From assembly GCF_019884785.1 (NCBI RefSeq), contig NZ_CP082326.1, forward strand, positions 1,853,355-1,917,354: a stretch of DNA of 64,000 bases. The letters run 5' to 3'. Below, piece after piece: positions 1 through 14,010 of this stretch; the first letter of the stretch is position 1, and every line of letters starts with the position of its first letter. The notes under the pieces are model-generated. The model made no database searches, was not told the DNA's origin, and was given only the letters and a program-made list of their open reading frames with translations. Position numbers and translations under genes: made by a program. Source of the DNA: Crassaminicella profunda (GTDB taxonomy: Bacteria; Bacillota; Clostridia; Peptostreptococcales; Thermotaleaceae).

Positions 1-1330
1 CGATTACACCCACTACGGATGAAGATACTAAATACGGTTCAATATCCATATCTACTAATCGTGTAACTGTAGATGCAGTATCGTTCGTATGCATTGTGCT
101 TAAAACTAGATGTCCTGTTATAGCAGCTCGAACTGCAATATGTGCTGTTTCAGCATCTCTTATTTCTCCGATCATAATAATATCAGGATCTTGTCTTAAA
201 ATAGATCTTAACCCACTAGAAAAAGTTAATTTTGCTTTGTTATTAACTTGTACTTGACTAATACCTTCCAAACGATATTCTACCGGATCCTCTATGGTAA
301 TAATATTTCTATTAATTTGGTTTAATTCTTTTAAAATAGCATATAATGTTGTAGTTTTTCCACTTCCCGTAGGACCTGTTACTAAAATGACACCATAGGG
401 ATTTTTTATAATTTTATCAAAACTATTTAAATTTTCTTCTGTAAATCCAAGTTCATTTTTAGAGAACACAAAATTATTTCTATCAAGTAATCTAAGCACA
501 ACTTTTTCCCCATATACTGTAGGTAATATAGAAATACGAATATCAATTTTTTTATCATCTACGACAATTTCAATTCGACCATCTTGTGGAATTCTTTTTT
601 CAGCAATATCCATTTTCCCCAATATCTTTATTCTTGATATGATGGATGCATGAGTTGTTTTTGCAATAGACATGATTTCTTGCAGTTCTCCATCAATACG
701 AAAACGTATGCGCAGTTTTTTTTCTGAAGGTTCAATATGAATATCACTTGCTTTTAATTTTATAGCTTGTTGAATAATAGAATTAACAAGCCTAACTGTA
801 GGTGCATTATGAATATCATTTGCTATCTGATTTTCTATATTTTCTACATTTTCTATTTGAGCTTCTCTTTTTAAATCTTCAATAGCTTTTTCAGCGCTTT
901 CTCTACCATAATACCTATCAATTGCATTTAAAATTTGTTGTTTTGTTGCAATTACTACATTTACATTTAGTCTTGTTGCAATTTTAACATCGTCTATGGC
1001 AAAAATATTTAAAGGATCAGACATAGCAACTGTTAGTTTCTCATGTTCTTTCTTTATGGGTATTAATACATGCCTTTTAGCTATTTTTTCACTGATTAAC
1101 CTAGGAACTTCTGGATCAATATGATATTTTTCTAAATCCATATGCGGAATTCCTAATTGAAATTCTAATATTTCTATCATTTGTTTTTCTTGTATAAAAC
1201 CTTCATCAATTAAGATTTCTCCTAATTTTTTTCCAGAAGATCTTTGGATTTTTAAAGCTTCATTGATCTGTTCTTCTGTGATAAATCCAGCATCAATGAG
1301 TAAATCTCCTAGTCGTTTTTTTGATTGCAT
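1..1330 (-). CDS. pilB: Type IV pilus / type II secretion assembly ATPase PilB (3' end outside window)
   Basis: About 443 codons are visible; the C-terminus lies beyond the left edge. The start ATG at 1330 follows GGTGGAGGAT. The N-terminus reads MQSKKRLGDLLIDAGFITEE and continues as two MshEN-type repeats (about residues 1-150), the domain that in relatives binds cyclic-di-GMP. The secretion ATPase core follows, with Walker A GPTGSGKTTT near residue 320 and the Asp/Walker B stretch DPDIIMIGEIRD near residue 380. Members of this family are cytoplasmic hexameric ATPases that power pilin polymerisation at the membrane. The gene is preceded by a cyclic-di-GMP-II riboswitch with a terminator, so pilus expression is probably tied to cyclic-di-GMP. 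GspE is the alternative name, but pili are far commoner in clostridia. The family assignment is secure. Confidence 0.93.
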   Translation of the reverse strand, partial: MQSKKRLGDLLIDAGFITEEQINEALKIQRSSGKKLGEILIDEGFIQEKQMIEILEFQLGIPHMDLEKYHIDPEVPRLISEKIAKRHVLIPIKKEHEKLTVAMSDPLNIFAIDDVKIATRLNVNVVIATKQQILNAIDRYYGRESAEKAIEDLKREAQIENVENIENQIANDIHNAPTVRLVNSIIQQAIKLKASDIHIEPSEKKLRIRFRIDGELQEIMSIAKTTHASIISRIKILGKMDIAEKRIPQDGRIEIVVDDKKIDIRISILPTVYGEKVVLRLLDRNNFVFSKNELGFTEENLNSFDKIIKNPYGVILVTGPTGSGKTTTLYAILKELNQINRNIITIEDPVEYRLEGISQVQVNNKAKLTFSSGLRSILRQDPDIIMIGEIRDAETAHIAVRAAITGHLVLSTMHTNDTASTVTRLVDMDIEPYLVSSSVVGVI

Positions 1331-1423
1331 AAGTATCCTCCACCTATAATATATAATTTTTTGTATAAAATAATAAATAATTTTAAATTATAAATTATCT
1401 TATCATTTCTATATATGGCTTTC

Positions 1424-1470
1424 AAAAAAATAAAAAGACTAACTATCTATATTATAATATAGCGTTAGTC
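1424..1470 (-). terminator. Riboswitch-controlled intrinsic terminator
   Basis: On the minus strand a stem pairs GACTAAC (1470-1464) with GTTAGTC (1443-1437), extended by CTATAT/ATATAG, and is followed by a T-rich run. The 5' arm of this stem is the same ACTAAC that closes aptamer helix P1. The two structures therefore exclude each other, and ligand binding should prevent termination (an ON switch). Confidence 0.8.
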
Positions 1471-1537
1471 GGTTACGCCACTACATCAACATGGCATAGG
1501 CGTCCAAAGTATAACCATGTATCATTTGTACTAACAT
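1460..1537 (-). promoter_or_regulatory. Cyclic-di-GMP-II riboswitch aptamer upstream of pilB
   Basis: Read on the minus strand, the region has the pattern of the Clostridium acetobutylicum class II aptamer as I remember it. ACAAATGATACATGGTTA near the 5' end matches the ACAAUGAUGAAUGGGUU stretch, and GTAGTGGCGTAACCGAC near the 3' end matches GUAGUGCAACCGAC. Closing helix P1 pairs GTTAGT (1535-1530) with ACTAAC (1469-1464). Internal pairings are GGTT with AACC and ACGCC with GGCGT. It sits about 130 nt upstream of pilB on the same strand. Class II switches are known upstream of type IV pilus genes in C. difficile. Confidence 0.88.
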
Positions 1538-1539
1538 CA

Positions 1540-1926
1540 TATTACTACATATCCCTATTTTAATTTATTATAAATAGTTCAATATAGTTTTTTTAAAATC
1601 CTGCTATAATATTTTAAAAAATGTTTTTTTTTGACGTATTTCATGTCTTATATAGGTGGTTTACAATAAATACTTTATTTTTTATCCTATTAACAAATAT
1701 GTTAAGTTTATTATTTTTATAATTCTTTATATGAAATATATCTTATAAGTTACCATGAATAGTAAAATATCTACTCTTAGAATATTATACCATTTATTTT
1801 TTAATTTTCCAACAAAAAAATTGTTATATATAGTTTTTTATTTGTTTTTATGTTATGGAATTTCCAAGGCAACAGTGTTAAAAATATAAAAATCTACAAT
1901 ATTTTTTATAACCTATAAAAAATAAA
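1540..1926. other. AT-rich intergenic region
   Basis: About 390 nt with no coding potential that I can support. It must hold the promoter for the pilB leader transcript on the minus strand. A TATAAT-like hexamer is present near 1570, but I cannot pair it with a clear -35 box. Confidence 0.5.
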
Positions 1927-1948
1927 ATGCTAGCAAAAATGCTAACAT
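1927..1948 (-). terminator. Intrinsic terminator after sigK
   Basis: The minus strand reads ATGTTAGCA, loop TTTT, TGCTAGCAT and then TTTATTTTTT, immediately after the sigK stop codon. Confidence 0.8.
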
Positions 1949-2262
1949 TTATCCATCCTTTTTATCATCAATATTCTTTTTTGTATTATAATGAAAAGCT
2001 TTACTAAGCTTTTTTATGGCTCTTTTTTCTATTCGGGATACATAAGAACGGGAAATTCCTAATAATTTTGCTATTTCCCTTTGTGTTTTACTTCCATCAT
2101 TAGCTAATCCATATCTTAATTGTAAAATAGTTCTTTCTCTATTTTTCAAAACACTGGACATTTTTTGGTATAATTTTTTTACTTGTATTTTTAGCTCTAC
2201 TTCGTCTAAAACTTCATCCGTTTCCGTTCCTAAAATATCTAAGAGTGATATTTCATTGCCTT
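1949..2262 (-). CDS. sigK: sigK exon 3: sigma-K region 3/4 (C-terminal part)
   Basis: This encodes the C-terminal 101 residues of the mother-cell sigma factor sigma-K, starting at E-I-S-L-L-D-I-L-G immediately after the recombination core. Region 4 ends with the helix-turn-helix TQREIAKLLGISRSYVSRIE and the stop at 1949. The exon has no start codon of its own: upstream of the core at 2252-2262 the frame runs into element DNA and a stop. Joining at the core AAGGCAATGAA to the middle exon (6220-6313) restores DKEGN-EISLL, which matches the continuous sequence of uninterrupted sigma-K proteins as I recall them. A methionine at 2161 opens a 70-residue frame, but that is internal to region 4 and is not a real start. 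Confidence 0.93.
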
Positions 2263-2282
2263 AAATAGCTTATCAACCTATT
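2252..2282. repeat. Left attachment half-site of skin-1
   Basis: The core TTCATTGCCTT (2252-2262, plus strand) is followed by the arm TTATCAACCTATT at 2270-2282. This arm is the inverted partner, with one extra base, of AATAGTTGATAA at 6194-6205 near the right end. In the excised circle the two arms face each other across the core, as expected for a serine-recombinase attP. Confidence 0.8.
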
Positions 2283-2363
2283 AGTTTGTCCGTTATACAC
2301 TTATATTATACAAATTTTAGATTAGTAATTATTTTACATAAAAATTTTTTTTGAAATCATGTA

Positions 2364-2391
2364 ACACATGCCCTACAACCTACATACATTG
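2364..2391 (+). promoter_or_regulatory. Candidate sigma-K promoter of the 43-residue gene
   Basis: AC (2364-2365), 17 nt, then CATACATTG (2383-2391). This matches AC-N17-CATAnnnTA with one mismatch and lies about 55 nt before the start codon. Confidence 0.45.
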
Positions 2392-2446
2392 TATTAGGTC
2401 AAAAGAAAGTAGTCAATATAATGAATATAAAAGGAGGCTTTTCCTT

Positions 2447-2578
2447 ATGGCTGATGCTCAATGTGGTGGAATTGGTGGTATTTTTGATGGTTGTGGTGGT
2501 TGCAGTACCGAATTATTATTATTCTTCTTGTTGTTAGTAGTAATATTCTGTAATTGTGGTGGTTATGGTCGTTGCTAA
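2447..2578 (+). CDS. Small Gly/Cys-rich hydrophobic protein (YjcZ-like sporulation type)
   Basis: 43 residues. The ATG at 2447 is chosen because AAAAGGAGG ends about 10 nt upstream; a longer reading from 2351 lacks a ribosome site. The N-terminal half is Gly/Cys-rich (CGGIGGIFDGCGGC), followed by the membrane-like segment LLLFFLLLVVIFC and a CGGYGRC tail. This layout resembles the tiny YjcZ-type spore proteins, but I do not claim homology. It lies inside skin-1 next to the C-terminal sigK exon, with a possible sigma-K promoter and a good terminator. It may be a spore component carried as cargo. Confidence 0.7.
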   Translation: MADAQCGGIGGIFDGCGGCSTELLLFFLLLVVIFCNCGGYGRC

Positions 2579-2586
2579 TTATTAAA

Positions 2587-2614
2587 AAGAATTGGGGGTT
2601 CATTCCCAATTCTT
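2587..2614 (+). terminator. Intrinsic terminator
   Basis: AAGAATTGGG pairs with CCCAATTCTT eight bases after the stop of the 43-residue gene. The following T-run is weak. Confidence 0.65.
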
Positions 2615-2855
2615 AATACATATTACCCTTTCATAAATCAGCTATTTATTGCAGTGCATTTTTTGATGACCAGGAGCAATCATGGTCTATATATACGATT
2701 TCTTTTCTTTTATTTCTTCTCTAATACTCTTGCAAACATACATATCTCTTATCAACTGTTTTCAACTTCTAGTAATCTATCTTTTACATATGTTTTCCAT
2801 TTACTTTTGGGCAGATTACCACCTCAATCGCTACCAACTATTTATTGTTAATATT
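2615..2855. other. Non-coding stretch within skin-1
   Basis: Overlapping open frames on the plus strand have no ribosome sites, are compositionally random and overlap one another in different frames. I see no gene here. Confidence 0.5.
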
Positions 2856-2887
2856 AAAGATAAGAGAGCTTTCACTCTCTTATCTTT
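2856..2887 (-). terminator. Hairpin terminator overlapping the end of a small gene
   Basis: AAAGATAAGAGAG (2856-2868) pairs perfectly with CTCTCTTATCTTT (2875-2887). It overlaps the stop codon of the 52-residue gene. The T-run is short. Confidence 0.6.
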
Positions 2888-3038
2888 CGTCTTCACTGCC
2901 AAAACCAAATGTTGCATTCACTATATCATTTTTTTCTCTTAAATCTGTTATCTCTTTATATTTACCTTGTGTAAGAGCTTTTTTTACAGAACCTTTTTTA
3001 GGATCTAAAAGCTCTTTTGCATTTTTAATTTGCTTCAT
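2880..3038 (-). CDS. Small hypothetical protein of skin-1 (52 aa)
   Basis: The protein begins MKQIKNAKELLDPKKGSVKK, is charged and has no membrane segment. The ATG at 3038 follows GAGGTGATGAT and overlaps the stop of the upstream small gene (ATGA), so the two are co-translated. I do not recognise the family. Its position among short minus-strand genes, one of which looks like a holin remnant, suggests a leftover phage module. Confidence 0.65.
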   Translation of the reverse strand: MKQIKNAKELLDPKKGSVKKALTQGKYKEITDLREKNDIVNATFGFGSEDER

Positions 3039-3196
3039 ATCATCACCTCACTATTAGTATTTGATGTAGGAAATAATGATATGCAGATATATTTTGCTTC
3101 TTCATTATAAACAGGATAATCGTCGATAACTTTATAAGTCATATATCCGTCTTCTTTCATTTCTTTTAACGACCTATTGTATTCTTCTATTTGCAT
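3035..3196 (-). CDS. Small hypothetical protein of skin-1 (53 aa), possibly truncated
   Basis: Starting at ATG 3196 the protein begins MQIEEYNRSLKEMKEDGYMT; it includes DDYPVYNEEA and ends in SEVMI. No convincing ribosome site precedes this ATG. The open frame runs a further 15 codons upstream to a TAG, so the true N-terminus may be lost. The stop overlaps the next gene's start. I recognise no family. Confidence 0.45.
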   Translation of the reverse strand: MQIEEYNRSLKEMKEDGYMTYKVIDDYPVYNEEAKYICISLFPTSNTNSEVMI

Positions 3197-3234
3197 GTCT
3201 ACTTTATGTTCTGAAACAGCTGCCTCTTTTATAT

Positions 3235-3411
3235 TTAACTATTCTCCATAGAAAGTAAATATACTACAACAATTATTCCTATGTTTCGACAATAAATAAT
3301 CTCTATGTATTAAACACATTTTTTATGTACAACAATCTTTTCATTTTCTTTTTCCCTATTTTCAAGCTTTCTAATGATTTTCTTTATTATTATAATTGTT
3401 TTTTCGTCCAT
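3235..3411 (-). pseudogene. Broken small membrane (holin-like) gene remnant
   Basis: ATG 3411 follows AAAGGGGGTTATAGAG and encodes MDEKTIIIIKKIIRKLE and on to residue 33, where a TAA (3310-3312) stops the frame. The same frame then continues through NIGIIVVVYFL, a membrane-like segment, to a TAA at 3235. A charged N-terminus, one hydrophobic helix and about 58 codons in total suggest a small holin-type or other membrane peptide interrupted by a nonsense codon. It could also be a genuine 33-residue gene. The identification is tentative. Confidence 0.4.
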
Positions 3412-3654
3412 CTCTATAACCCCCTTTACCTACTTAATTCGATAAAAAGAATTATATTCCTACTTAAATCGTTCGACAAAAGGAAATTTTTTACTTTATT
3501 CAACGCTTCTGCTTAATTATCCCTTCTTCTCTTTTATAACTATCATGACTCATGCAATTTTTAGAACGAATAAAAAGATACTTCTTCATTTACTCATAAA
3601 CCTTATATTGAGTGTTTTAAGGTATATATAATCAGAAAGGATGTTTATCTTTTG

Positions 3655-3819
3655 TTAGATATCTTCTCCCTTTTCTCTAAGTTCTTGAATAATCGCCCAT
3701 CCTGCTCTGTGATACTCGTCTAACACCTTTTCTATCTCTTCCTCTGTCATCGGTGGTGGGCCTATAATATGAACAGTAGTGTTGCCAAAATGATAGGTAG
3801 CATCATATTTTTCTTCCAT
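3655..3819 (-). CDS. 54-aa conserved small protein; candidate recombination directionality factor of skin-1
   Basis: MEEKYDATYHFGNTTVHIIG opens the protein, followed by a PPPMTEEEIEKVL motif and EYHRAGWAIIQELREKG. I recall this YDATYHFGN...PP...HRAGWA family as common in clostridial mobile elements near recombinases. The ATG at 3819 follows a strong GGAGGTG. A 13-nt motif, GCATAGTACAAAC, lies 35 nt upstream. The identical motif lies 34 nt upstream of the corresponding minus-strand gene in skin-2 (7077-7250). Serine recombinases excise only with a directionality factor, and in C. difficile that factor is a small skin-encoded protein. This gene is therefore a candidate by position and regulation, not by demonstrated homology. 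Confidence 0.75.
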   Translation of the reverse strand: MEEKYDATYHFGNTTVHIIGPPPMTEEEIEKVLDEYHRAGWAIIQELREKGEDI

Positions 3820-3853
3820 TTCAACACCTCCACTACAAATTATGAATTTACTG

Positions 3854-3866
3854 GTTTGTACTATGC
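3854..3866 (-). promoter_or_regulatory. Shared promoter/operator motif (skin-1 copy)
   Basis: GCATAGTACAAAC on the minus strand, identical to 7284-7296 and at nearly the same distance from the start codon of a small gene. CATAGTAC resembles the -10 of mother-cell sigma factors, but no clear -35 was found. Confidence 0.6.
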
Positions 3867-4046
3867 CTACACTCTATGTTTACCTTTCGTAAATCTATCA
3901 ATATTTTGGTTAAAGTTGTTTAGGTGAATGTTTTTTAGAATGGGAAAACTAAATAGCTTTTGGTAATGTATCTATAAGACTTCCCCAAGTAAAAACTAAA
4001 ACTTTTATCGATTAGTTTACGCTTATGCTAGATGAACATAAAATAA

Positions 4047-4072
4047 AATTCCCCACCCAAAAGTGAGGAATT
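4047..4072 (-). terminator. Terminator of the GYGP-repeat gene
   Basis: The minus strand reads AATTCCTCAC, loop, GTGGGGAATT and then TTATTTTAT, downstream of the gene ending at 4128. Confidence 0.7.
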
Positions 4073-4127
4073 ATTTGTTTGATTTACTTTGTTGTATCAA
4101 TATATATTGCTTTATACATCTTTAATA

Positions 4128-4373
4128 TCAATAGTATCTGCCACCATATCCAAAGAATGGTGCAAGTAGCCATAGCCATGGTGCAAAACCATACCCTGGT
4201 CTATATCCCGGTCCATACCCTGGCCCATACCCCGGGCCATAACCTGGTCCGTATCCTGGACCATACCCCGGTCCATATCCTGGTGGCCTACGTCTTGGTC
4301 TGCGTCTTGGTCTACGTCTTGGATTAGAAGCAGTCTCAGCATCTATTGAGCAATCATATACATTATCATCCAT
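4128..4373 (-). CDS. Arg-rich / GYGP-repeat coat-like protein carried by skin-1 (81 aa)
   Basis: ATG 4373 follows AGGAGGTATTGTTAA. An acidic N-terminus (MDDNVYDCSIDAE) is followed by three PRRR repeats and then about eight PGYG repeats. The protein ends in a hydrophobic aromatic tail, GFAPWLWLLAPFFGYGGRYY. Low-complexity Gly/Tyr/Pro proteins of this build are typical of spore coat or exosporium surface layers; the assignment is by composition only. A sigma-K-type promoter lies 36 nt upstream. The codons are GC-rich relative to their surroundings, as expected for repeats. Plus-strand frames over the same repeats are shadows. Confidence 0.8.
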   Translation of the reverse strand: MDDNVYDCSIDAETASNPRRRPRRRPRRRPPGYGPGYGPGYGPGYGPGYGPGYGPGYRPGYGFAPWLWLLAPFFGYGGRYY

Positions 4374-4408
4374 TTAACAATACCTCCTAACATATTTATG
4401 TCTACTAT

Positions 4409-4435
4409 TAAAATATGATTCGGAGAAATTATTGT
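4409..4435 (-). promoter_or_regulatory. Candidate sigma-K promoter of the GYGP gene
   Basis: On the minus strand AC (4435-4434), 16 nt, CATATTTTA (4417-4409). This is a full match to CATAnnnTA with an acceptable spacer. Confidence 0.6.
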
Positions 4436-4469
4436 TACTTTTTTACTTCTTATTATATTGAGATTTGGG

Positions 4470-4558
4470 GTATTTCTTTATATATCGTTGAAAATTTCAC
4501 TTTAATGCTAATATCTGTGATTACCTATCGAATTCGCACTATTACCTTGGAAATAATT
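4470..4558 (+). promoter_or_regulatory. Conserved upstream region of the skin-1 recombinase gene
   Basis: Three blocks also occur in order upstream of the skin-2 recombinase (7383-7475): TATTTCTTTATATATC (4471-4486), TGCTAATATCT (4506-4516) and CACTATTACCTTGGAAATAA (about 4537-4556). The last is an imperfect dyad, ATTnCC-nn-GGAAAT. Surrounding sequence differs, so the blocks look selected. Confidence 0.6.
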
Positions 4559-4647
4559 AAATATATTTCATTATTTTTTCATTTAATTATAATCATTCTA
4601 GAAAATAATATAATATAAATATAATCATGTAACAGAAAGGTGATCAC

Positions 4648-6183
4648 ATGGAAAGAATATGTATATACCTAAGGAAATCTCGTGCTGATGAAGAAGCAGA
4701 AAAACGTGGTGAAGGTGAAACATTAGCCAAACATAGAAAAACCCTCTTAAAGGTTGCCCAAGAGCAACGACTAAATATAGTTAAAATTCGGGAAGAAATA
4801 GTATCTGGTGAAAGTCTTATGCATAGACCAGAAATGTTAGAACTTCTTAAGGATGTAGAATCAAAACAATATGATGCTGTTCTATGTATGGATGTGGATC
4901 GATTAGGCAGGGGTAATATGCAAGAGCAAGGATTAATATTAGAAACATTTAAGAAGGCAAATACAAAGATTATTACCCCTCGTAAAACTTATGACCTGCA
5001 TGATGAATTCGACGAAGAATACAGCGAATTTGAAGCCTTTATGGCTAGAAAAGAATTAAAGATTATTAATAGACGTTTACAATCTGGAAGAATCCGATCC
5101 ATAGAAGAAGGAAATTATATTTCTCCCCTTCCCCCATATGGATATGAAATACATTATACGGATAAATCAAGAACTTTAAAACCTTATCCTGCGCAGGCTG
5201 ATGTAGTAAAAATGATATTTAATTTATATACAAGTCACAATTTAGGTTGCAGTAAAATTGCTAATAAATTAAATCAATTAGGATACAAAACATATACAAA
5301 TAAAGACTGGTCTAATTCATCTGTTTTGACTATTATAAAAAATCCAGTATATGCAGGTAAAATCACGTGGAAGAAAAAAGAAATTAAGAAATCTTCTAAC
5401 CCTAATAAGGTAAAAGATGCTAGGCAAAGACCAAAAAGTGAATGGATTATTGCAGATGGAAAGCATAAAGCTTTGATATCTATGAAAATGTATCTGAGAG
5501 CCCAGAACATATTAGGAAAAAGATATCATGTCCCATACCAATTAGAAAGTGGCATAACAAACCCATTAGCTGGAATAATTAAATGTAACAAATGTGGAGC
5601 CTCTATGGTACTTCGTCCTTATAAAAAAAAAGATGATCAGCTTATGTGTTATACACATTGTGGAAATAAAAGTAGTAAATTGAAATATGTAGAACAGCAG
5701 CTAATAGCAGCATTAAATGAATGGTTAGAAAAATATAGCGCTCAATATGATACAAGAACACAGACTGAAAAAGATAAAAATAATTCTATATCTCTATATA
5801 AAAAAGTACTAACTCAATTAGAAAAAGAATTGCTTGAATTAGAAAAGCAAAAGGGAACTTTACATGACTTCTTAGAACGTGGAGTCTATGATGTAGACAC
5901 CTATTTAGATAGATCACAAAATCTTATAGACAAAATAAAAAAAACAAAAAAATATATAGTTAAAGCTAAAATTACACTTGAACATGAAGTTAAAAGACAC
6001 GAAGTTAAGAATAATATGATTCCTAAAATAAAAAAAGTGCTAGATGTATATTCACGTACAACTGATCCAGCAAAGAAAAATTGTCTACTTAAAAGTATAC
6101 TTGATTCTGCTGTATATAACAAAGAGAAAAATCAGAGAAATGATCAATTTACATTAGTACTTTATCCTAGACTGCCACATTAA
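4648..6183 (+). CDS. Large serine recombinase of skin-1 (SpoIVCA-type)
   Basis: 511 residues; ATG 4648 follows AGAAAGGTGATCAC. The N-terminal resolvase domain (about 1-150) opens with [13 protein letters not shown], giving the nucleophilic Ser11, and has the arginine motif DVDRLGRG near residue 80. A recombinase domain follows (about 160-270), then a zinc-ribbon-like KCNKCG...CYTHCG segment near 310-340, and a long charged coiled coil (about 370-470) before a short C-terminal tail. The gene runs opposite to sigK and ends 37 nt from the right core. Enzymes of this class cut and religate DNA at two att sites; here the predicted job is to excise skin-1 in the mother cell. It differs clearly from the recombinase of skin-2, so one is not a recent duplicate of the other. 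Confidence 0.93.
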
Positions 6184-6188
6184 AGATT

Positions 6189-6230
6189 CCCTCAATAGTT
6201 GATAAACTGTTGAGGGAAATTCATTGCCTT
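6189..6230. repeat. Right attachment half-site of skin-1 with palindrome
   Basis: Just after the recombinase stop, a 28-nt palindrome (6189-6216) pairs CCCTCAA with TTGAGGG and AGTT with AACT. It contains the arm AATAGTTGATAA (6194-6205). The core TTCATTGCCTT follows at 6220-6230. No T-run follows on either strand, so this is more likely a recombinase-binding arm than a terminator. Confidence 0.75.
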
Positions 6231-6313
6231 CTTTATCTATACCAATAGGGTCTTGTAAGGAGACTTCACTTTTTGTTTTTTTACTAGAACGAATTGTCAT
6301 CAATATTTCATTT
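6220..6313 (-). CDS. sigK: sigK exon 2 (29-codon micro-exon between two elements)
   Basis: Encodes [22 protein letters not shown] and GIDKEGN, the segment that in sigma-K proteins joins region 2.4 to region 3. It is flanked by recombination cores on both sides: CATTT at 6309-6313 (shared with 9226-9230) and TTCATTGCCTT at 6220-6230 (shared with 2252-2262). Alone it is untranslatable in any useful sense: its frame enters from element DNA and runs on into the recombinase tail. After both excisions it links IEN to EIL and EGN to EIS exactly in frame. Confidence 0.92.
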
Positions 6314-6347
6314 GCAATATATACTAAAATGCAATTTTTAAAATAAT

Positions 6348-6608
6348 CTATTCTGTAACTTTTTTTAATATCCAAAATCTTTTGCTTTTTACTTGTTTTG
6401 TTTCAATGCCCTTAATAAAATCTAACATATCTCTGGTTTCTAATGTTCTAAGATCCCTCTGGAAATTTCTTAATGCATGACTTTTATATATATTTTTTTT
6501 CATGAGATATTCTATAACATCCGCTGGAGTTGCTTCTGTTTTGTTATTTGTTTGTAACCATTCTTGTATATAGTTACTTATAAGTTTACTTTTTACTGTT
6601 AATCTCAT
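6348..6608 (-). CDS. 86-aa hypothetical protein at the left edge of skin-2 (winged-helix-like)
   Basis: ATG 6608 follows AGAAAGGGTGACTAC. The sequence begins [20 protein letters not shown]. Its helical, basic content ([26 protein letters not shown]) and a final strand-rich FWILKK suggest a small winged-helix DNA-binding protein; this is inference from composition. It ends about 35 nt from the left core. It could bind the attachment site or regulate the recombinase. A TGTCGAA heptamer lies about 30 nt upstream of its start. I do not recognise the family. Confidence 0.75.
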
Positions 6609-6872
6609 ATGTAGTCACCCTTTCTTACAGACAGTATTCGACACAAAATAGGAAAATCCTACTTATATATGAAATAATTTGTTTTATAAGAATAATTTAC
6701 TTGTATGTGTAATATTTTTTATTAAAGTTAAAGTGTGGTTAAAAGCTTTTTATTCATTGATACTATTCTACTCGGAAGTATTAATTTTTAATTATTTGCG
6801 GTATATTTTGAATAAACCTTTAATATAATCTATTTAAAATAGTAATTTAAAATGATAGAAAGGATTGATAAC

Positions 6873-7049
6873 TTGATTAAGTTTCCTTTATGGATTGCCC
6901 AAAATAAACATAAAATTTTAATTTATGATGCTCAATCTAATCTTATTCGTACATTTCCTTATACCATTACTACTGAAAAACAAATAAAACATTTAGTAAA
7001 TCTTTGTAACCAGCATTATGACTTATCCTTTTTAAATACAATACGATGA
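6873..7049 (+). CDS. Small hypothetical protein of skin-2 (58 aa)
   Basis: The TTG at 6873 is chosen because AGAAAGG lies nine nt upstream; the in-frame ATG at 6852 has no ribosome site. The protein begins (M)IKFPLWIAQNKHKILIYDAQ, includes LIRTFPYTITTEKQIKHLVN and ends FLNTIR. It looks like a compact strand-helix fold. Upstream, 6760-6785 carries ACTATTCTACTCGGAAGTAT, a variant of the dyad found before both recombinase genes. Function unknown. Confidence 0.6.
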   Translation: MIKFPLWIAQNKHKILIYDAQSNLIRTFPYTITTEKQIKHLVNLCNQHYDLSFLNTIR

Positions 7050-7076
7050 CAGTTTAATGAATAGTGATTTCGTCCT

Positions 7077-7250
7077 CTACACCTTTTTTATCTGTAATTT
7101 AACATCTTCCCAAAGTCTATATTTGTCTTCTTCATCTATTGATAACTTATTAATATACTCTTTTATCATATTTACATGTTCCTGTGCTATTCTTTCGCTT
7201 AATAGCTTTTGTTTTTCTAGAGTATGTGGAAAATGTAATCTAATTTTCAT
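7077..7250 (-). CDS. 57-aa small protein; candidate directionality factor of skin-2
   Basis: ATG 7250 follows GAGGTGGTCAT. The protein begins MKIRLHFPHTLEKQKLLSER and continues as a charged helical chain to IKKV. It is unrelated in sequence to the 54-residue protein of skin-1 as far as I can see. However, it occupies the same place (minus strand, upstream of and divergent from the recombinase) and shares the GCATAGTACAAAC motif 34 nt upstream. It is therefore the best positional candidate for the accessory factor of this element. Its function is not shown by sequence. Confidence 0.7.
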   Translation of the reverse strand: MKIRLHFPHTLEKQKLLSERIAQEHVNMIKEYINKLSIDEEDKYRLWEDVKLQIKKV

Positions 7251-7283
7251 ATGACCACCTCAAAACATTCTATGAAAACCTTA

Positions 7284-7296
7284 GTTTGTACTATGC
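7284..7296 (-). promoter_or_regulatory. Shared promoter/operator motif (skin-2 copy)
   Basis: GCATAGTACAAAC on the minus strand, identical to 3854-3866. Confidence 0.6.
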
Positions 7297-7382
7297 TATA
7301 GGTTTTATCAGGGAAGAATCTATTGATCTACTTAAAGGAGCTTTTCTTTTTTTATAATATGGGAATTTGTATTATTTTCAGC

Positions 7383-7475
7383 TGTATTTCCTTATATATC
7401 ACTGGATTTTTTAATAATTATGATGATTCTTGCTAATATCTATCATATTTTCACTATTCCCTCGGAAATAATTTA
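7383..7475 (+). promoter_or_regulatory. Conserved upstream region of the skin-2 recombinase gene
   Basis: TGTATTTCCTTATATATC (7383-7400), TGCTAATATCT (7431-7441) and TCACTATTCCCTCGGAAATA (about 7451-7470). Order and approximate spacing match the skin-1 region at 4470-4558, ending about 80-90 nt before each start codon. Confidence 0.6.
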
Positions 7476-7553
7476 ATAGGCTGTGGAAATGATTTATCAC
7501 TTTTTTTATAACCAACAGTAATATGATAATAAATTTTTTAGAAAGGTGATTCT

Positions 7554-9188
7554 ATGCATATAGCTATTTATTCTAGAAAATCAAAATTTACAGGAAAAGG
7601 TGAATCTACGCAAAATCAAATACAGCTTTGTAAGGAATATGCCCTACAGCATTTTAATCCTATTGAAAAATTTATTACCTATGAAGATGAAGGTTTTTCT
7701 GGTGGTAATATAGATAGACCGGAGTATCAAAAAATGATGAAAGACGCTAGTGAGGGTAAATTTCATATTTTGATGTGCTATAGATTAGATAGGATCTCTA
7801 GAAATATTTCTAACTTTTCAGATATTATAGACATGTTAGAAAGGGAAAACATAGGTTTCATCTCTCTTCGTGAACAGTTTGACACTTCTACACCAATGGG
7901 CCGTGCAATGATGTATATCGCTTCTGTTTTTGCACAACTTGAAAGAGAAACGATTGCGCAGCGTATACAAGATAATATGCTACAGCTTGCAAAGACAGGT
8001 AGATGGCTTGGTGGTACAACACCTACAGGCTTTGAATCTAAAGCAGTTAAAATAATTGATGCTAATGGTAAAGAAAAGAAAAATTATAAACTTTCTCCTA
8101 TCCCAGATGAATTAGAAAAGATTAAAATCCTATTCCATAAATTTTTAGAATTACAATCATTAAGTAAGCTTGAAACATATTGTATTCAAAATAATATTAA
8201 AACCCGAAATAATATAGATTTTTCACGCTTCGCTTTGCGTAATATTCTAATGAATCCTGTATACGCAACTGCTGATGAGTTGCTATATAATTACTTATGT
8301 AAAAATAAATTTATCATCTACACAGATAAAAATGATTTTAACGGTGATCATGGAATCATGGCCTATAATAAAACCATACAAAAAAAACACACCTCCAACA
8401 AAATTAGAGACTATCCTGAATGGATTATTTCCATAGGTGCTCATAAGGGAGTCATTCCTAGTAAGAAATGGATCAAAGTTCAAAAAATCTTATTAAAAAA
8501 CAAATCAAAATCTTTTAGAAAAGTTAAAAATACCCAGTCCCTTTTATCCGGATTATTACGTTGTAAAAAATGTGGCAGTTTTATGCGACCTCGTACAGGT
8601 CGAAAAAATAAAGATGGTGTACAGATCTTTTATTACATGTGTGAATACAAAGAAAAAAGTAAGAAAATGAAATGCAACATAAAAAATATAAATGGGAATC
8701 AACTAGATGCACTAGTATTAGAAGAAATAAAAAAACTATCTAAAAATAACACCCTACTATGTGAAAGCATCTCTAAGAATCACTTAAAAATTGAAAAAAT
8801 TGATAAGACTATTTGCTCTGAAAAGATTATGCTATCATCTCATATTAAAAGCAATGAACGTGCTATTCTGAGCTTAATCAATGCTTTATCAAAAGGACAA
8901 AATTCTACTGCTACAAAATATATCATCAAACAAATTGAAGAATTAGATGAAAAAACAAAAGAACTAAAAAATAGGCTTTCTCATTTTAGTAAAAGTAAGA
9001 ATGAGAATCAATCCACAGAAATAGATATAGAAAATATAAAGAATATACTTACAACCTTTCCTAAAATGGTTGATTCTTTAGACGTATATGGTAAACGTAA
9101 TTTGATTAATCATTTAATAGAAAATATAACTTGGGATGGAGAAAATATTGATATCACCATGTTCGGAGTAAACTATGAAAAAAAATAA
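7554..9188 (+). CDS. Large serine recombinase of skin-2 (SpoIVCA-type)
   Basis: 544 residues; ATG 7554 follows AGAAAGGTGATTCT. The resolvase domain starts [18 protein letters not shown] with the nucleophile Ser10. It contains [14 protein letters not shown] and YRLDRISRN near residue 80. The recombinase domain is at about 160-290. The zinc ribbon is intact ([10 protein letters not shown] then YYMCE and KCN near 340-385). A leucine-rich coiled coil occupies about 400-490. The N-terminus resembles, from memory, the skin recombinase of C. difficile. It ends 38 nt from the right core of skin-2, the same layout as in skin-1. Predicted job: site-specific excision of skin-2. Confidence 0.93.
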
Positions 9189-9230
9189 ACGAAAACATAA
9201 AAATGTTTCCGTTTTGAAAGGATAGCATTT
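9187..9230. repeat. Right attachment half-site of skin-2 with palindrome
   Basis: A 28-nt palindrome (9187-9214) overlaps the recombinase stop: AAACG/CGTTT and AAACAT/ATGTTT around AAAA. The core CATTT follows at 9226-9230. Length and placement copy the palindrome at 6189-6216, though the sequence differs. Confidence 0.7.
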
Positions 9231-9568
9231 TCAATACAACGTGCTGCATAAGTAGCTAACCTTGTGCCTTTGCTTCTATCAAAAGATGTAATAGCTTTTA
9301 TTAATCCAATGGTCCCTATAGAAATTAAATCATCCACATCTCTTCCTGTATTATGATATTTTTTTACAATATGAGCAACTAATCTTAGATTTCTTTCTAC
9401 TAGTATATTTTTGGCATCTTCATCTCCTTGTTCATATAGTGCTAAATAATGGTTTTCTTCTTCAGGTGTTAGTGGTTTAGGGAAAGATGTATTACTAGAA
9501 ATATAAGATACTAACATAAAAATAGGTTTTGCCAAAATAACAGATACGGTTACTACTGTGGTCCACAT
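9226..9568 (-). CDS. sigK: sigK exon 1: pro-sequence and sigma region 2 (N-terminal part)
   Basis: ATG 9568 is chosen: AGGAGGTG ends about 10 nt upstream, whereas a GTG at 9580 would touch the ribosome site. Residues 1-26 ([20 protein letters not shown] and on) form a hydrophobic pro-sequence like that removed from Bacillus pro-sigma-K by the SpoIVFB membrane protease. Region 2 follows: [33 protein letters not shown] and YAARCIEN (residue 114). Without rearrangement the frame reads 17 foreign residues and stops at 9173. After loss of both elements the exons give 114+29+101 = 244 residues. Sigma-K drives late mother-cell genes for coat and spore maturation. Confidence 0.94.
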
Positions 9569-9602
9569 TGAGATGCACACCTCCTAATTATGCGTCATCT
9601 TA

Positions 9603-9630
9603 AATTATATGTATTCATCTAAAGATCTGT
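9603..9630 (-). promoter_or_regulatory. Candidate sigma-E/sigma-K promoter of sigK
   Basis: On the minus strand AC (9630-9629), 17 nt, CATATAATT (9611-9603), 35 nt before the start codon. This fits a mother-cell promoter (CATAnnnT), possibly with autoregulation. Confidence 0.5.
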
Positions 9631-9655
9631 GCATGTCTTGAGAAGAATTTCTTTT

Positions 9656-11335
9656 TTAATTGATTCGTTGTTTAATATTTTTAAAAATTGGTATGGCTGA
9701 TTTTCCTCCTGAAATACCATCTTCAACAACAATCGTTATAACATATTTAGGATCCTTACTAGGAAAAAAACCAGTGAACCATGCATGGACAATATCTTTT
9801 CCTTGTAATTTTGCTTGTGCCGAACCAGTCTTTCCAGATGTTTTACCCAATCCCATATTTCTTGCTGTCCCCATACTTACTACCTTTTCCATCATAGTTT
9901 GAATTCTTTTAGCAGTATGATAGCTTATCACTTTTTGTGGGTTATTTTTATCCTTCTTTTTTATAATTTTTCCATGATCATCAATAATTTCTTTTATTAG
10001 ATATACGCCTTTGTCTACTCCATCATTAGCAATAATTGCTGTAGTCTTTGCGATTTGTAAGGGTGTTACTTCTAATGTGCCCTGTCCTATAGAAATATTT
10101 CCTATTCCTGCTCCTTTCATATATTCTTCAGATGGGAGACTTCCAGATATTTCTTCATACAATCCAATATTTGTTTTTGAACCTAATCCGAATTTTTTTG
10201 CCATAGACAAAATCTTTTCTCCACCTATTTTTTCTCCTAATTGTATGAAAGCAGCATTACAGGATACAGCAAAAGCTTCTTCCAAATTTAATTTTCCATG
10301 CCCTCCCTTGTCAAAACTCCAACATTTAATTCTCGTATCTCCTATCTCTTCATATCCTTTACAAAAGAAATCATCATCATTTATTTTATTTTCAAGAGCT
10401 GCTGCTGTAACAATAATCTTAAAAATAGACCCAGGAGGATAGCCTATTTGAACAGCTCTGTTATAAAGTTCCTTATTATTACTTTTAAGGTATGCTGCCA
10501 CATTATTCTGATCAAAATTAGGTCTGCTCACCATAGCCAATATTTCCCCACTTTGCACATCTAATATCACAACACTTCCATTTTTATGAAGCTTCTCAAA
10601 TTCTTCTTCTGCTATTTTTTGTATATGATAATCTAATGTAGTTACAATATTTTTTCCGTTTTCTCTGAATGATTGATCCTGCTTTTTATAGCCTAAGCCC
10701 GGTATGATTTTCTTTTGCGCATCTACAACAGCTTCTACTTTACAAATTTGATTTTCTTTTAATACTTCATCATACATTTTTTCTATTCCCTTTTCGCCTA
10801 TATTATCGATTTTATTGATATATCCAATCACATGAGCAGCTATCGATTTTTTATTATATCTATCATTATAGTCAACAGGATATACTCCTTTTATAGACAT
10901 AACTTTTTTAATAAGCTCTTCTTTATCATTTTTAATTTCAAGCTTAATTGTTCTACTACTAGTTAATTTACCTTTTTTTAATTTATAAGGAGATATACTT
11001 GTAATATCACTGATCATTTTTATATTTTCGTCTGATTCTATAAAGTATTCAGGGTAAATAACCAAATATCTTTTTTCTTCTTGATTGGTAAGAAGTAACC
11101 TATTTCGATCGTATATCTTTCCTCTTTCTATTCCAACGGGTATCTCTTTAAACCATTGATTTTTTGCACGAGCATAATAATCATTTCCTTTAACAATTTG
11201 TATATAAAAGAGCCTACTCATTAAACCTAAGAGAAATACGGTAAAAATTATGCCTAAGGTATAAATTCTTTTCTGATTGTTTTCGTAGACATTATTTATT
11301 TGTTTTTTTCTTTTTCTATCCACTCTCGATTCCAA
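9656..11335 (-). CDS. Class B penicillin-binding protein (transpeptidase), PbpI/YrrR-like
   Basis: 559 residues from a TTG at 11335, which lies seven nt after AAGGAAGGTG; a longer reading from 11380 has no ribosome site. A short basic N-terminus is followed by one membrane helix (IYTLGIIFTVFLLGLMSRLF), a dimerisation domain, and a transpeptidase domain with all three motifs: PPGSIFK (Ser nucleophile), VSCNA (SxN-type) and GKTGSA. It cross-links peptidoglycan on the outer face of the membrane. In Bacillus a class B PBP sits downstream of udk in the same neighbourhood. A role in sporulation is plausible but not shown. Confidence 0.9.
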   Translation of the reverse strand: MESRVDRKRKKQINNVYENNQKRIYTLGIIFTVFLLGLMSRLFYIQIVKGNDYYARAKNQWFKEIPVGIERGKIYDRNRLLLTNQEEKRYLVIYPEYFIESDENIKMISDITSISPYKLKKGKLTSSRTIKLEIKNDKEELIKKVMSIKGVYPVDYNDRYNKKSIAAHVIGYINKIDNIGEKGIEKMYDEVLKENQICKVEAVVDAQKKIIPGLGYKKQDQSFRENGKNIVTTLDYHIQKIAEEEFEKLHKNGSVVILDVQSGEILAMVSRPNFDQNNVAAYLKSNNKELYNRAVQIGYPPGSIFKIIVTAAALENKINDDDFFCKGYEEIGDTRIKCWSFDKGGHGKLNLEEAFAVSCNAAFIQLGEKIGGEKILSMAKKFGLGSKTNIGLYEEISGSLPSEEYMKGAGIGNISIGQGTLEVTPLQIAKTTAIIANDGVDKGVYLIKEIIDDHGKIIKKKDKNNPQKVISYHTAKRIQTMMEKVVSMGTARNMGLGKTSGKTGSAQAKLQGKDIVHAWFTGFFPSKDPKYVITIVVEDGISGGKSAIPIFKNIKQRIN

Positions 11336-11399
11336 AAAAAACACCTTCCTTAAAAAATTGGCTACGATTAGTATTTCCAATTTTAGGAAGGCGTATACT

Positions 11400-12050
11400 T
11401 TATAATATTTTTAATTCTCTACCATTTTGTTTTTCATAAATAATAGATCTTACTTTTGATACCATAATGTCTATAGCTACTTTATTATACCCACCCTCTG
11501 GAATAATAATATCTGCATATCTTTTACTAGGTTCAATAAACTGAAGGTGAGCTGGTCGAACCGTATTTAAATATTGTTCAATAACTGATTCAAGGGTTCT
11601 TCCTCTTTCATTGATATCTCTTGTAATTCTTCTAATAATTCTTACATCCGCATCTGTATCTACAAATATTTTTATATCCATTAATTCTCTCAAATTTTCA
11701 TCTTCTAAGATCATAATTCCTTCTAATATAATAATATCTTTAGGCTCAACACGAACGGTTTCCTTTCTTCTTGTATGTTTTTCAAAATTATATATAGGCT
11801 TTTCTACAGGTCTATAGTTTAAAAGTTCGTGGAGCTGCTTAAGTAAAAGTTCTGTATCAAAGGCCAATGGATGATCATAATTGGTATGTATTCTTTCTTC
11901 CATTGGCAAATGACTTTGATCTCTATAATAAGAATCCTGTTCTATAATAGCAATATTTTTTTGTGGTAAACTTTCAAAAATAGCTTTTGCAATAGTACTT
12001 TTTCCAGAACCTGTACCCCCAGTAATGCCAATTAAAATTGGTTTACTCAA
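11400..12050 (-). CDS. udk: Uridine kinase
   Basis: 216 residues. The TTG at 12050 gives [19 protein letters not shown] and is preceded by AAAGGATG at a workable distance; an ATG at 12059 abuts its ribosome site. The P-loop GGTGSGKST lies near the N-terminus; [12 protein letters not shown] and [13 protein letters not shown] are typical of the family. It phosphorylates uridine and cytidine in pyrimidine salvage. It overlaps the end of the U32 peptidase gene by a few bases, indicating one operon. Length is normal. Confidence 0.95.
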
Positions 12051-13284
12051 GACAATCATCCTTTCTACATCGTCTTAGAATGTGATATTTTTCTACTGGC
12101 TTTTCCATTTTTATTTTTATCATTTGTTGAGGATGTGGTGCTACATCAAGGGCTTCTCCCTTATCATTCCATAAGTGTTCAATGTTTTGTGTGTAATTTT
12201 TCATACCTGGTCCCATTACTTCAATGGTTTCTCCTTTAAATACTCTATTTCTTTGTTCTACCCTAGCTATGCCCGTTTTTTCATCATAATCTACTACCAA
12301 TCCTACAAAATCATATTCACGTATATACGAACTATTTGCATATAATTGTTCTTCCTCTTTTGGCTTATCTATATAAAATCCAGTTGTAAATTTCCTATGA
12401 CTTGCTTTTTTTATTTCCATCATCCAATTTGGATCATATTTATAAGTTTCTTTATTTTCATAGTATGTATCTATGGCCTTTCTATACACATTAACAATAT
12501 TTGCAACATAGTATGCACTTTTCATTCTTCCTTCTATTTTAAGACTTGAGAGTCCTGATTCGATCAATTCAGGAATATATTCAATCATGCAAAGGTCCTT
12601 TGAATTAAAAAAGTATGTCCCTTTTTCATCTTCAAAAACGGGCATATACTCTCCTGGCCTTTTTTCTTCCATTAAATAATATTGCCATCTACATGGATGG
12701 GCACATGCACCTCTATTGGCATCTCTATTTGCCATATAGTTGCTTAGAAGACATCTTCCTGAATAAGATATACACATAGCTCCATGTACAAATCCTTCTA
12801 ATTCTAAATCATCTGGTATATTTTCTCTTATTTCTTTAATCTCTTTAAAAGACATTTCGCGAGCCAATATCACTCTTTTTATTCCTTGATTGTGCCAAAA
12901 TTTTGCACTCATATAATTCGTATTATTTGCTTGTGTACTTAAATGTACTTCCATATCTGGTGCAAACTCTTTTACATACATAAATGTACCTGGATCTGAT
13001 AAAATAACGGCGTCAATATTTAACTCTTTCAATTCTTTCAAATATCCAGGAAGCTCTTTTAAGTCCTCATTATGCGGAATAATATTTAATGTAACATATA
13101 CTTTTTTTCCTCTTTTGTGGGCAAATTCTATTCCCTTTTTCATATCTTCAAATGAAAAGTTTTTGGCACTGGCCCTTAATCCAAAAACCTGTCCGCCTAT
13201 ATATACAGCATCAGCTCCATATATAATAGCCATTTTTAATTTTTCTAAATCACCAGCAGGTGCTAATAATTCTATTTTTTTCAT
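12043..13284 (-). CDS. U32-family peptidase-like tRNA hydroxylation protein (TrhP/YrrO-like)
   Basis: 413 residues; ATG 13284, the second of two adjacent ATGs, is seven nt after AGGAGG. It starts [20 protein letters not shown] and carries the U32 signature [19 protein letters not shown] with later cysteines in GACAHPCRW. Members of this group, with an iron-sulfur cluster, act in 5-hydroxylation of uridine 34 in tRNA rather than in proteolysis. The next gene upstream is the methyltransferase that acts on that product, so the pair forms one modification pathway. B. subtilis has two such genes in tandem; only one is present here. Confidence 0.88.
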
Positions 13285-13295
13285 CATTTTTCCTC

Positions 13296-13937
13296 CTAAT
13301 TTTTATAGCTTAAGGCTACACCATCACCAATAGGTAATAAGGATGTTGTAAGTTCTGGATGATCCATAATATAATCTAAGTATTTCCTCATCCTTTTTAC
13401 AATAGTTATTTTTCTACGTACTACATATTCATCAGAAGCAATCATCCCTTTATATAATACATTATCAGAAACAAGTACGCCTCCTTTTTTTAAGAGGTCT
13501 ATACTCGAAGAAAGAAATTTCATATATTGTCCTTTTGCAGCATCTAAAAATATTAAATCAAATTTCCCCTTTAATGTTGGTAATATTTCTTCAGCGCAAC
13601 CTTCTATAACTTCTATTTGACCTTTAAGTCCTGCCATTTCTATATTCTTTCTAGCAATTTCAACCATATCGTTTCGTTTCTCTATACTCGTTAACTTCCC
13701 ATCTTCCATAGCCTTCATAAAAATAATAGCAGAATAGCCAATAGCTGTTCCTACTTCTAAGACAGATTTTGTTTGATTAATTTTTGTAATTACTTCTAAA
13801 AGTTTTGCTACTTCTGGTTGTACAATAGGTACATGATTCTTAAAAGCATACTCCTCCATATCTTTTAATAATCCATCTTTTTGTGGCAAAATATTCCTTA
13901 TATATTCTTCCACTAATTCATTAACGATATTACTCAA
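13296..13937 (-). CDS. trmR: tRNA 5-hydroxyuridine O-methyltransferase (TrmR/YrrM family)
   Basis: 213 residues from the TTG at 13937; an upstream TTG at 13946 touches the AAGGAG site. A class I SAM-dependent fold is seen: VLEVGTAIGYSAIIFM (motif I), the acidic SIEKRNDMVE, FDLIFLDAAKGQY and a GVLVSDNVLYKG loop. It belongs to the family-3 O-methyltransferases; TrmR converts 5-hydroxyuridine at position 34 of tRNA to 5-methoxyuridine. Placement directly before the TrhP-like gene supports TrmR over a catechol methyltransferase. Confidence 0.87.
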   Translation of the reverse strand: MSNIVNELVEEYIRNILPQKDGLLKDMEEYAFKNHVPIVQPEVAKLLEVITKINQTKSVLEVGTAIGYSAIIFMKAMEDGKLTSIEKRNDMVEIARKNIEMAGLKGQIEVIEGCAEEILPTLKGKFDLIFLDAAKGQYMKFLSSSIDLLKKGGVLVSDNVLYKGMIASDEYVVRRKITIVKRMRKYLDYIMDHPELTTSLLPIGDGVALSYKN

Positions 13938-14010
13938 TCTATACAACTCCTTTTATTGATCTTTGGCAAAAAGAAGTACGTGAAATGCTTCACGTATTGG
14001 TTTTCCTCTT

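Follow-up and report, generated by a model that had tools for sequence, protein, structure and literature searches.

An old question about skin elements is whether they belong to the circuit that controls sporulation or are parasites, tolerated because the mother cell dies. The sigK gene of Crassaminicella profunda, found in pieces within a 64,000-nucleotide stretch of contig NZ_CP082326.1 (positions 1,853,355 to 1,917,354 of the forward strand; "the window" below is this whole stretch, numbered from its first base), makes that question testable, as it would need two unrelated recombinases and has two unrelated candidate directionality factors behind one promoter-like motif. How could a gene in this state give rise to sigma-K? 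We consider it very likely that it is a composite gene, which would be closed by two developmentally timed, coordinated site-specific excisions. The pieces, located by tblastn and frame joining, and the two elements that separate them, A and B, are as follows.

9568-9226, minus strand: sigK piece N, with a pro-sequence-like start and AAATG (9230-9226) at its end
6313-6220, minus strand: sigK piece M, a micro-exon that holds both repeats
2262-1949, minus strand: sigK piece C, with AAGGCAATGAA (2262-2252) at its start and the stop codon
6314-9230: element A, 2,917 bp, delimited by frame joining and by the A-only relatives G001 and G002
2263-6230: element B, 3,968 bp, delimited by frame joining and by the empty site B of G001 and G002
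7554-9188, plus strand: large serine recombinase of A, 544 aa (Pfam domains; phrog_95 integrase; site-A group)
4648-6183, plus strand: large serine recombinase of B, 511 aa (Pfam domains; phrog_95 integrase; site-B group)

All three pieces are on the minus strand in the collinear order N, M, C, and both elements lie inside sigK, splitting its reading frame. The element ends carry short direct repeats whose recombination restores that frame: AAATG, with copies at 9230-9226 and 6313-6309, and AAGGCAATGAA, with copies at 6230-6220 and 2262-2252. Excising 2,917 and 3,968 bp at these repeats yields one frame of 244 codons, to which N, M and C contribute 338, 83 and 314 nucleotides, respectively. 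The joined product and the intact sigK of a relative (G008) share 208 of 239 residues in an ungapped comparison. With G008 sigK as a tblastn query, the window matched residues 1-117 (E 7e-64), 112-144 (E 5e-13) and 142-239 (E 1e-47), and these E values exclude a chance match of the three pieces. An earlier sequence-only reading of this DNA had proposed the same piece coordinates, common orientation and repeats, and a single sigma-K-like frame of 244 codons; tblastn, frame joining and the match to G008 confirmed all of them.

A sigK profile run over the whole genome, a single contig of 4,589,101 bases, gave 16 matches, namely the three sigK pieces, one full-length match above the cut-off at 2038601 and weaker matches that are other sigma genes. 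The full-length match is a separate gene that we read as sigE, with a neighbor read as sigG. This search found no intact sigK elsewhere in the genome, a finding that the earlier reading had said would refute it, and because it found no other sigK, the proposal that two excisions would be needed is supported. That the split is an assembly artefact is extremely improbable, given a one-contig genome and the same layout inside single contigs of G015, G042, G585 and Polycladospora.

A gene interrupted twice might be dead, its insertions no longer excising and the strain either asporogenous or deprived of sigma-K, and the split state is indeed seen from sequence alone. Selection on the pieces was estimated as pairwise NG86 dN/dS between the window and relatives. 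Against G001, a member of the same genus, the values were 0.026/0.778 for the whole gene, 0.015/0.742 for N, 0.016/0.668 for M and 0.042/0.868 for C; against G002, whole sigK gave 0.029/0.590. On the 26 codons scored, M is under a constraint equal to that on the rest of sigK. Two comparisons were dropped (G042 with G020, because of an N piece out of register, and G008 with G011 for part C, where G011 is cut), and for several distant pairs the synonymous distance was saturated and not computable. All three pieces are under purifying selection, which argues against a dead gene. Furthermore, both recombinases are intact, and SpoIIID and other sporulation-type sigma genes are present, so that we regard a defunct sigK as highly improbable.

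As the earlier reading had held for elements of about 2.9 and 4.0 kb, each element encodes its own large serine recombinase: both open reading frames (ORFs) have Resolvase, Recombinase and zinc-ribbon domains according to Pfam, with PHROGs in agreement. The two enzymes are only about 23% identical to each other. Site A, where element A lies, is the Asn codon of ENEILM (codon 114); site B, occupied by element B, is at the Asn-Glu codons of GNEISL (codons 143-144). The relatives follow the same division, with recombinases like that at 7554-9188 at codon 114 and those like that at 4648-6183 at codons 143-144. In a tree of 41 recombinases that we selected from the fetched loci (23 from site A, 17 from site B and one other from the C. 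profunda genome), the site-A and site-B sets need one change each, with support 100/100. The site-B group also includes enzymes from Peribacillus tepidiphilus (L072), Polycladospora coralii (L100) and Pelosinus propionicus (L102). The site-A recombinase of Polycladospora has a very long branch, about 25% identity and a shared repeat shifted by some bases; the low identity and the shift identify it as a different recombinase at nearly the same codons. With relatives that naturally carry A only, B only, both or neither, the earlier view of two independent recombinase-encoding elements in one sigK was the right one.

Prophage-like gene content is found in several described intervening elements, though not all. 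Seven small ORFs of the elements scanned against PHROGs gave no structural phage match, only matches at E 0.013 or weaker. Two ORFs of element B have a spore-coat-type look: an Arg/Pro/Gly/Tyr-repeat ORF (4128-4373, minus strand), which matches nothing in Pfam or PHROGs, and a short Gly/Cys-rich ORF (2351-2578, plus strand) resembling a small spore-coat-type protein. Two relatives, G007 (L026) and G013 (L031), carry a tandem of two distinct site-A-type recombinase genes between N and M-C, which may mean that two elements are stacked at a single site.

Each element also contains one small conserved gene, a candidate for a directionality factor, and the regions ahead of these genes and of the recombinases have features in common.

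7077-7250, minus strand: candidate directionality factor A, 57 aa; one cluster over eight A elements (the window and seven others)
3655-3819, minus strand: candidate directionality factor B, 54 aa; tblastn matches in 16 other loci (E <= 1.5e-4), a count that excludes copies of the window itself
7271-7294, minus strand: promoter-like motif ATAGTACAA-N11-CATA before candidate factor A, 24 bp
3841-3864, minus strand: promoter-like motif ATAGTACAA-N11-CATA before candidate factor B, 24 bp
7366-7472, plus strand: leader of recombinase A, common to recombinase B (pattern and profile searches)
4452-4557, plus strand: leader of recombinase B, common to recombinase A (pattern and profile searches)

The two candidate factors belong to different protein clusters. 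In the 2.2-kb A element of G002, every listed ORF other than the factor-A-type gene overlaps the recombinase gene. An 86-aa ORF at 6348-6608 was considered for the role of factor A and rejected, being present only in the window and G001. Scanning 44 loci for ATAG[TG]ACAA-N7-12-CATA gave 30 matches in 29 loci, every one with a spacer of 11 bases; 29 of these matches precede an ORF of 54-82 aa, and the remaining one precedes sigK itself in Polycladospora. Within the C. profunda genome the looser pattern TAGTACAA-N8-12-CATA occurs nine times (a control pattern, seven), and with an 11-base spacer it occurs at four places, two of which are the factor promoters of the window. Judged by sequence alone, each element thus offers a small gene behind a common motif, as a directionality factor under sporulation control might have. 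We take CATA to be the -10 element of a sigma-E promoter and the left part of the motif to be a SpoIIID-type box, on the strength of their consensus sequences. This reading also draws on the sigma-E and SpoIIID control reported for CD1234, the small factor of the Clostridioides difficile element (PMC5025042). SpoIIID itself was found in the genome.

About 107 bp ahead of both recombinases are shared despite the approximately 23% identity of the proteins. The leader core CACTATTNCCTNGGAAATA, with one mismatch allowed, occurs at two sites in the genome, both of them these leaders, whereas a control pattern occurs at none. Searching with a profile of the window pair plus G001 and G002 revealed variants ahead of the site-A recombinase genes in G007 and G013, and a weak match (E 0.07) after sigK in G009. 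In an Rfam scan of window positions 1-14000 the leader matched no family at E <= 1, since the sole match there is a c-di-GMP-II riboswitch (1458-1541, minus strand, 56.3 bits, above the gathering score). The riboswitch sits downstream of sigK, between piece C and a GspE/PilB-type ATPase gene (2-1330, minus strand), which suggests c-di-GMP control of a type IV pilus operon.

Attachment sites were analyzed by setting the element ends against each other and scoring the best center of inverted symmetry. For B, the same attP center was best in 12 of 13 elements (summed score 164, next 91), placing the predicted crossover on the GA of AATGAA; in the window itself the B arms score 13 of about 19 (next center 10). 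For A, one center was best in 9 of 17 elements (177, next 110), with the crossover predicted on the AA of AAT. The two predicted crossovers are 90 bp apart, and the rebuilt attB of A and that of B both contain AATGAAATAT, the codons for Asn-Glu-Ile. Despite this common sequence, exchange between A and B is not expected because the predicted dinucleotides differ (AA versus GA), and the two reactions should be orthogonal. The two sites would also offer two recombinases that act 90 bp from each other and have a predicted orthogonality. The presence of AATGAAATAT in both sites could also be taken to mean that only one step is developmental, the other element leaving constitutively, or that a product that skips M is used, and joining N to C would keep the frame. 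We think this very unlikely in view of the different dinucleotides, the conservation of M and the common motif of both candidate factor genes.

The closure of sigK by two timed excisions would then proceed as follows. In growing cells A and B would both be integrated, as attL and attR, and sigma-K could not be produced. Sigma-E, acting with SpoIIID in the mother cell, would turn on two unrelated small proteins, one per element, each of which would switch its resident recombinase from integration to excision. The 2.9-kb circle of A and the 4.0-kb circle of B would be released in either order, and the double excision would rebuild the 244-codon gene for pro-sigma-K, while the forespore would retain both elements. 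Two co-timed excisions would amount to an AND-type lock on sigma-K. Excision, the role of the small proteins, control by sigma-E and SpoIIID, processing of the pro-sequence and the lock are what we infer. Several points weigh against this scheme. The candidate factors have no match to a family of known function (none in Pfam; in PHROGs a weak one for the A protein, E 0.013). The motif is not universal, since it is absent from 15 of the 44 loci scanned, some of them partial, and present in just 1 of 20 class-level loci. The attP arms of A in the window are weak (9 of about 19, a tie, with the best center one off the consensus), and for several relatives M or C lay beyond the fetched stretch.

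How widespread is a three-piece sigK? An order-level sample of 393 genomes contained 143 with a match to piece N, 37 of them with an open frame under 205 codons. We examined 31 of these, having dropped G045 and G307 (contig ends) and G229 (an apparent frameshift), while G111, G146 and G196 were not fetched. Six of the 31 have the gene in three pieces: G000, G015 and G042, each within one contig; G020, in one contig with N inverted; and G012 and G049, whose pieces lie on two contigs each and for which the three-piece state is inferred. A class-level draw of 391 genomes, which overlaps the order draw, led to 20 further short frames and one more case, G585, a one-contig genome; among these 20, the gene start alone was reached in seven (G564, G583, G498, G421, G714, G410, G688), and G572 and G456 look like frameshifts. 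Among 80 named loci there was one three-piece sigK, that of Polycladospora coralii (Bacilli), which is an independent case. The total is eight genomes, C. profunda and seven others, and is a lower bound because later gene parts lay beyond the fetched stretch in several genomes; in G036, G067, G102 and G202, part of sigK was outside it. The search of clostridial genomes that the sequence-only reading had recommended thus upheld a sigK in three pieces but showed that the arrangement is not singular.

In two relatives the pieces face in opposite directions. G031 (L037 with L045) has the order PBP gene, N, recombinase, M-C in opposite orientation and GspE gene in the usual direction, with att halves of the usual type at N and at M. 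Because these halves face each other, sigK would be closed by a recombination that flips about 2.2 kb. G020 (L036 with L041) is arranged like G031, except that its segment, of about 9.4 kb, also holds element B; it would need one inversion and one excision. Both are drafts of one family, and a misassembly or a shared ancestral flip may account for them. In E. coli, the C. difficile recombinase CD1231 is reported to invert DNA between facing attB and attP (PMC5025042).

Other loci depart from the pattern in further ways. G014 (L032, L033, L034) has a complete M-C and, about 22 kb further, a second C piece; ahead of the latter are a canonical att half and a factor gene, both of B type. In this genome tblastn found no B-type recombinase, and the layout looks like escape from a stuck element. 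In G011 (L184, about 2136), sigK is open at sites A and B and cut near its end, after GISRSY, next to ORFs that are ParA-like, ParB-like or very long; this may be a third position for insertion, taken by a larger element. In the C. profunda genome, other recombinase genes adjoin shortened-looking genes (L181 9900-10298, L178 6710-8029, L180 7450-7938), and further split genes are possible. One of these neighbors is a Hydrolase_2 (SleB/CwlJ-type) gene covering profile positions 5-100; the others we take, from their sequences, to be FAD oxidoreductase-like and ComM-like ORFs.

The relatives form a natural series (neither element, A, B, both, inverted), with same-genus pairs that have and lack B; empty and occupied B sites are available for comparison by pairing G118 with G049, G523 or G624 with G585, and G001 or G002 with the window. 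Such variation among near relatives suits another explanation, in which two good attB sites, lying in a gene that only the dying mother cell needs, were taken by two selfish elements; both must still excise, with no regulatory value in the double split itself. Two genomes of one genus differ in B, with G049 carrying both elements and G118 just A, and their A recombinases are almost identical; element sizes differ greatly, and G014 keeps a B-type remnant with its second C piece beside the complete M-C. On the other side, both window elements are very small, the unrelated factor genes have one promoter motif, and the unrelated recombinases share a leader absent elsewhere in the genome. Motif and leader together indicate common timing, though not benefit, and we give the passenger explanation a chance close to, but short of, even. 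The double split may have been selected as a lock or just tolerated. It is with some reservation, and as somewhat less than an even proposition, that we suggest that three DNA "exons" would be assembled into one gene by two orthogonal recombinases under the timing of a single promoter type, forming a double cell-fate lock that arose repeatedly in spore formers (eight genomes), with variants closed by programmed inversion (G031) or by inversion and excision (G020). If true, programmed genome rearrangement would have a parallel in bacteria, and two independent locks would multiply the fidelity of sigma-K activation.

The sequence-only reading knew of no described sigK with two elements around a micro-exon, and the open-access literature searched (including PMC13141910 and PMC10747680) likewise reports single elements per sigK and none with two, the subscription papers lying mostly outside that search. 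The same literature, with the same limit on subscription papers, contains no report of sigK pieces in opposite orientations. The position of skinCd, the C. difficile element, probably corresponds to site B: in two genomes from a genus that looks Clostridioides-like, sigK is split there, and the recombinase shows 52% identity to that of B. Site A we presume, by exclusion, to be in the same part of sigK as the skin of Bacillus subtilis. Like each element here, skinCd lies in sigK and has a large serine recombinase, CD1231; its small factor, CD1234, to which the candidate factors of A and B would correspond, is reported as a protein of 53 aa and pI 4.9 under sigma-E and SpoIIID (PMC5025042, PMC10747680). 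It differs in being the sole element in its sigK and in having 19 genes (PMC5025042), whereas here a second element adds a second gap; C. difficile sigma-K is also described there as lacking a pro-sequence, in contrast to the pro-sequence-like start of piece N. The B. subtilis skin is likewise a recombinase-carrying element in sigK (SpoIVCA, with the 64-aa factor Skr), and it is removed in the mother cell, but it is one large defective prophage only, and skr overlaps spoIVCA (PMC6957869). The gin element of Bacillus cereus ATCC 10987 resembles A and B, with their candidate factors, in having a serine recombinase (GirC), a small factor (GirX) and no phage genes; unlike them it is 28.6 kb long, lies in another gene, gerE, holds three recombinase genes in one element and makes a single gap (PMC5595907). 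The B. subtilis and C. difficile elements are reported to occupy different regions of sigK (PMC5025042, PMC6957869), each interrupting one, whereas this genome is interrupted in both. Skin-type elements as such are already known; two of them in one sigK, around a micro-exon, are a new variant.

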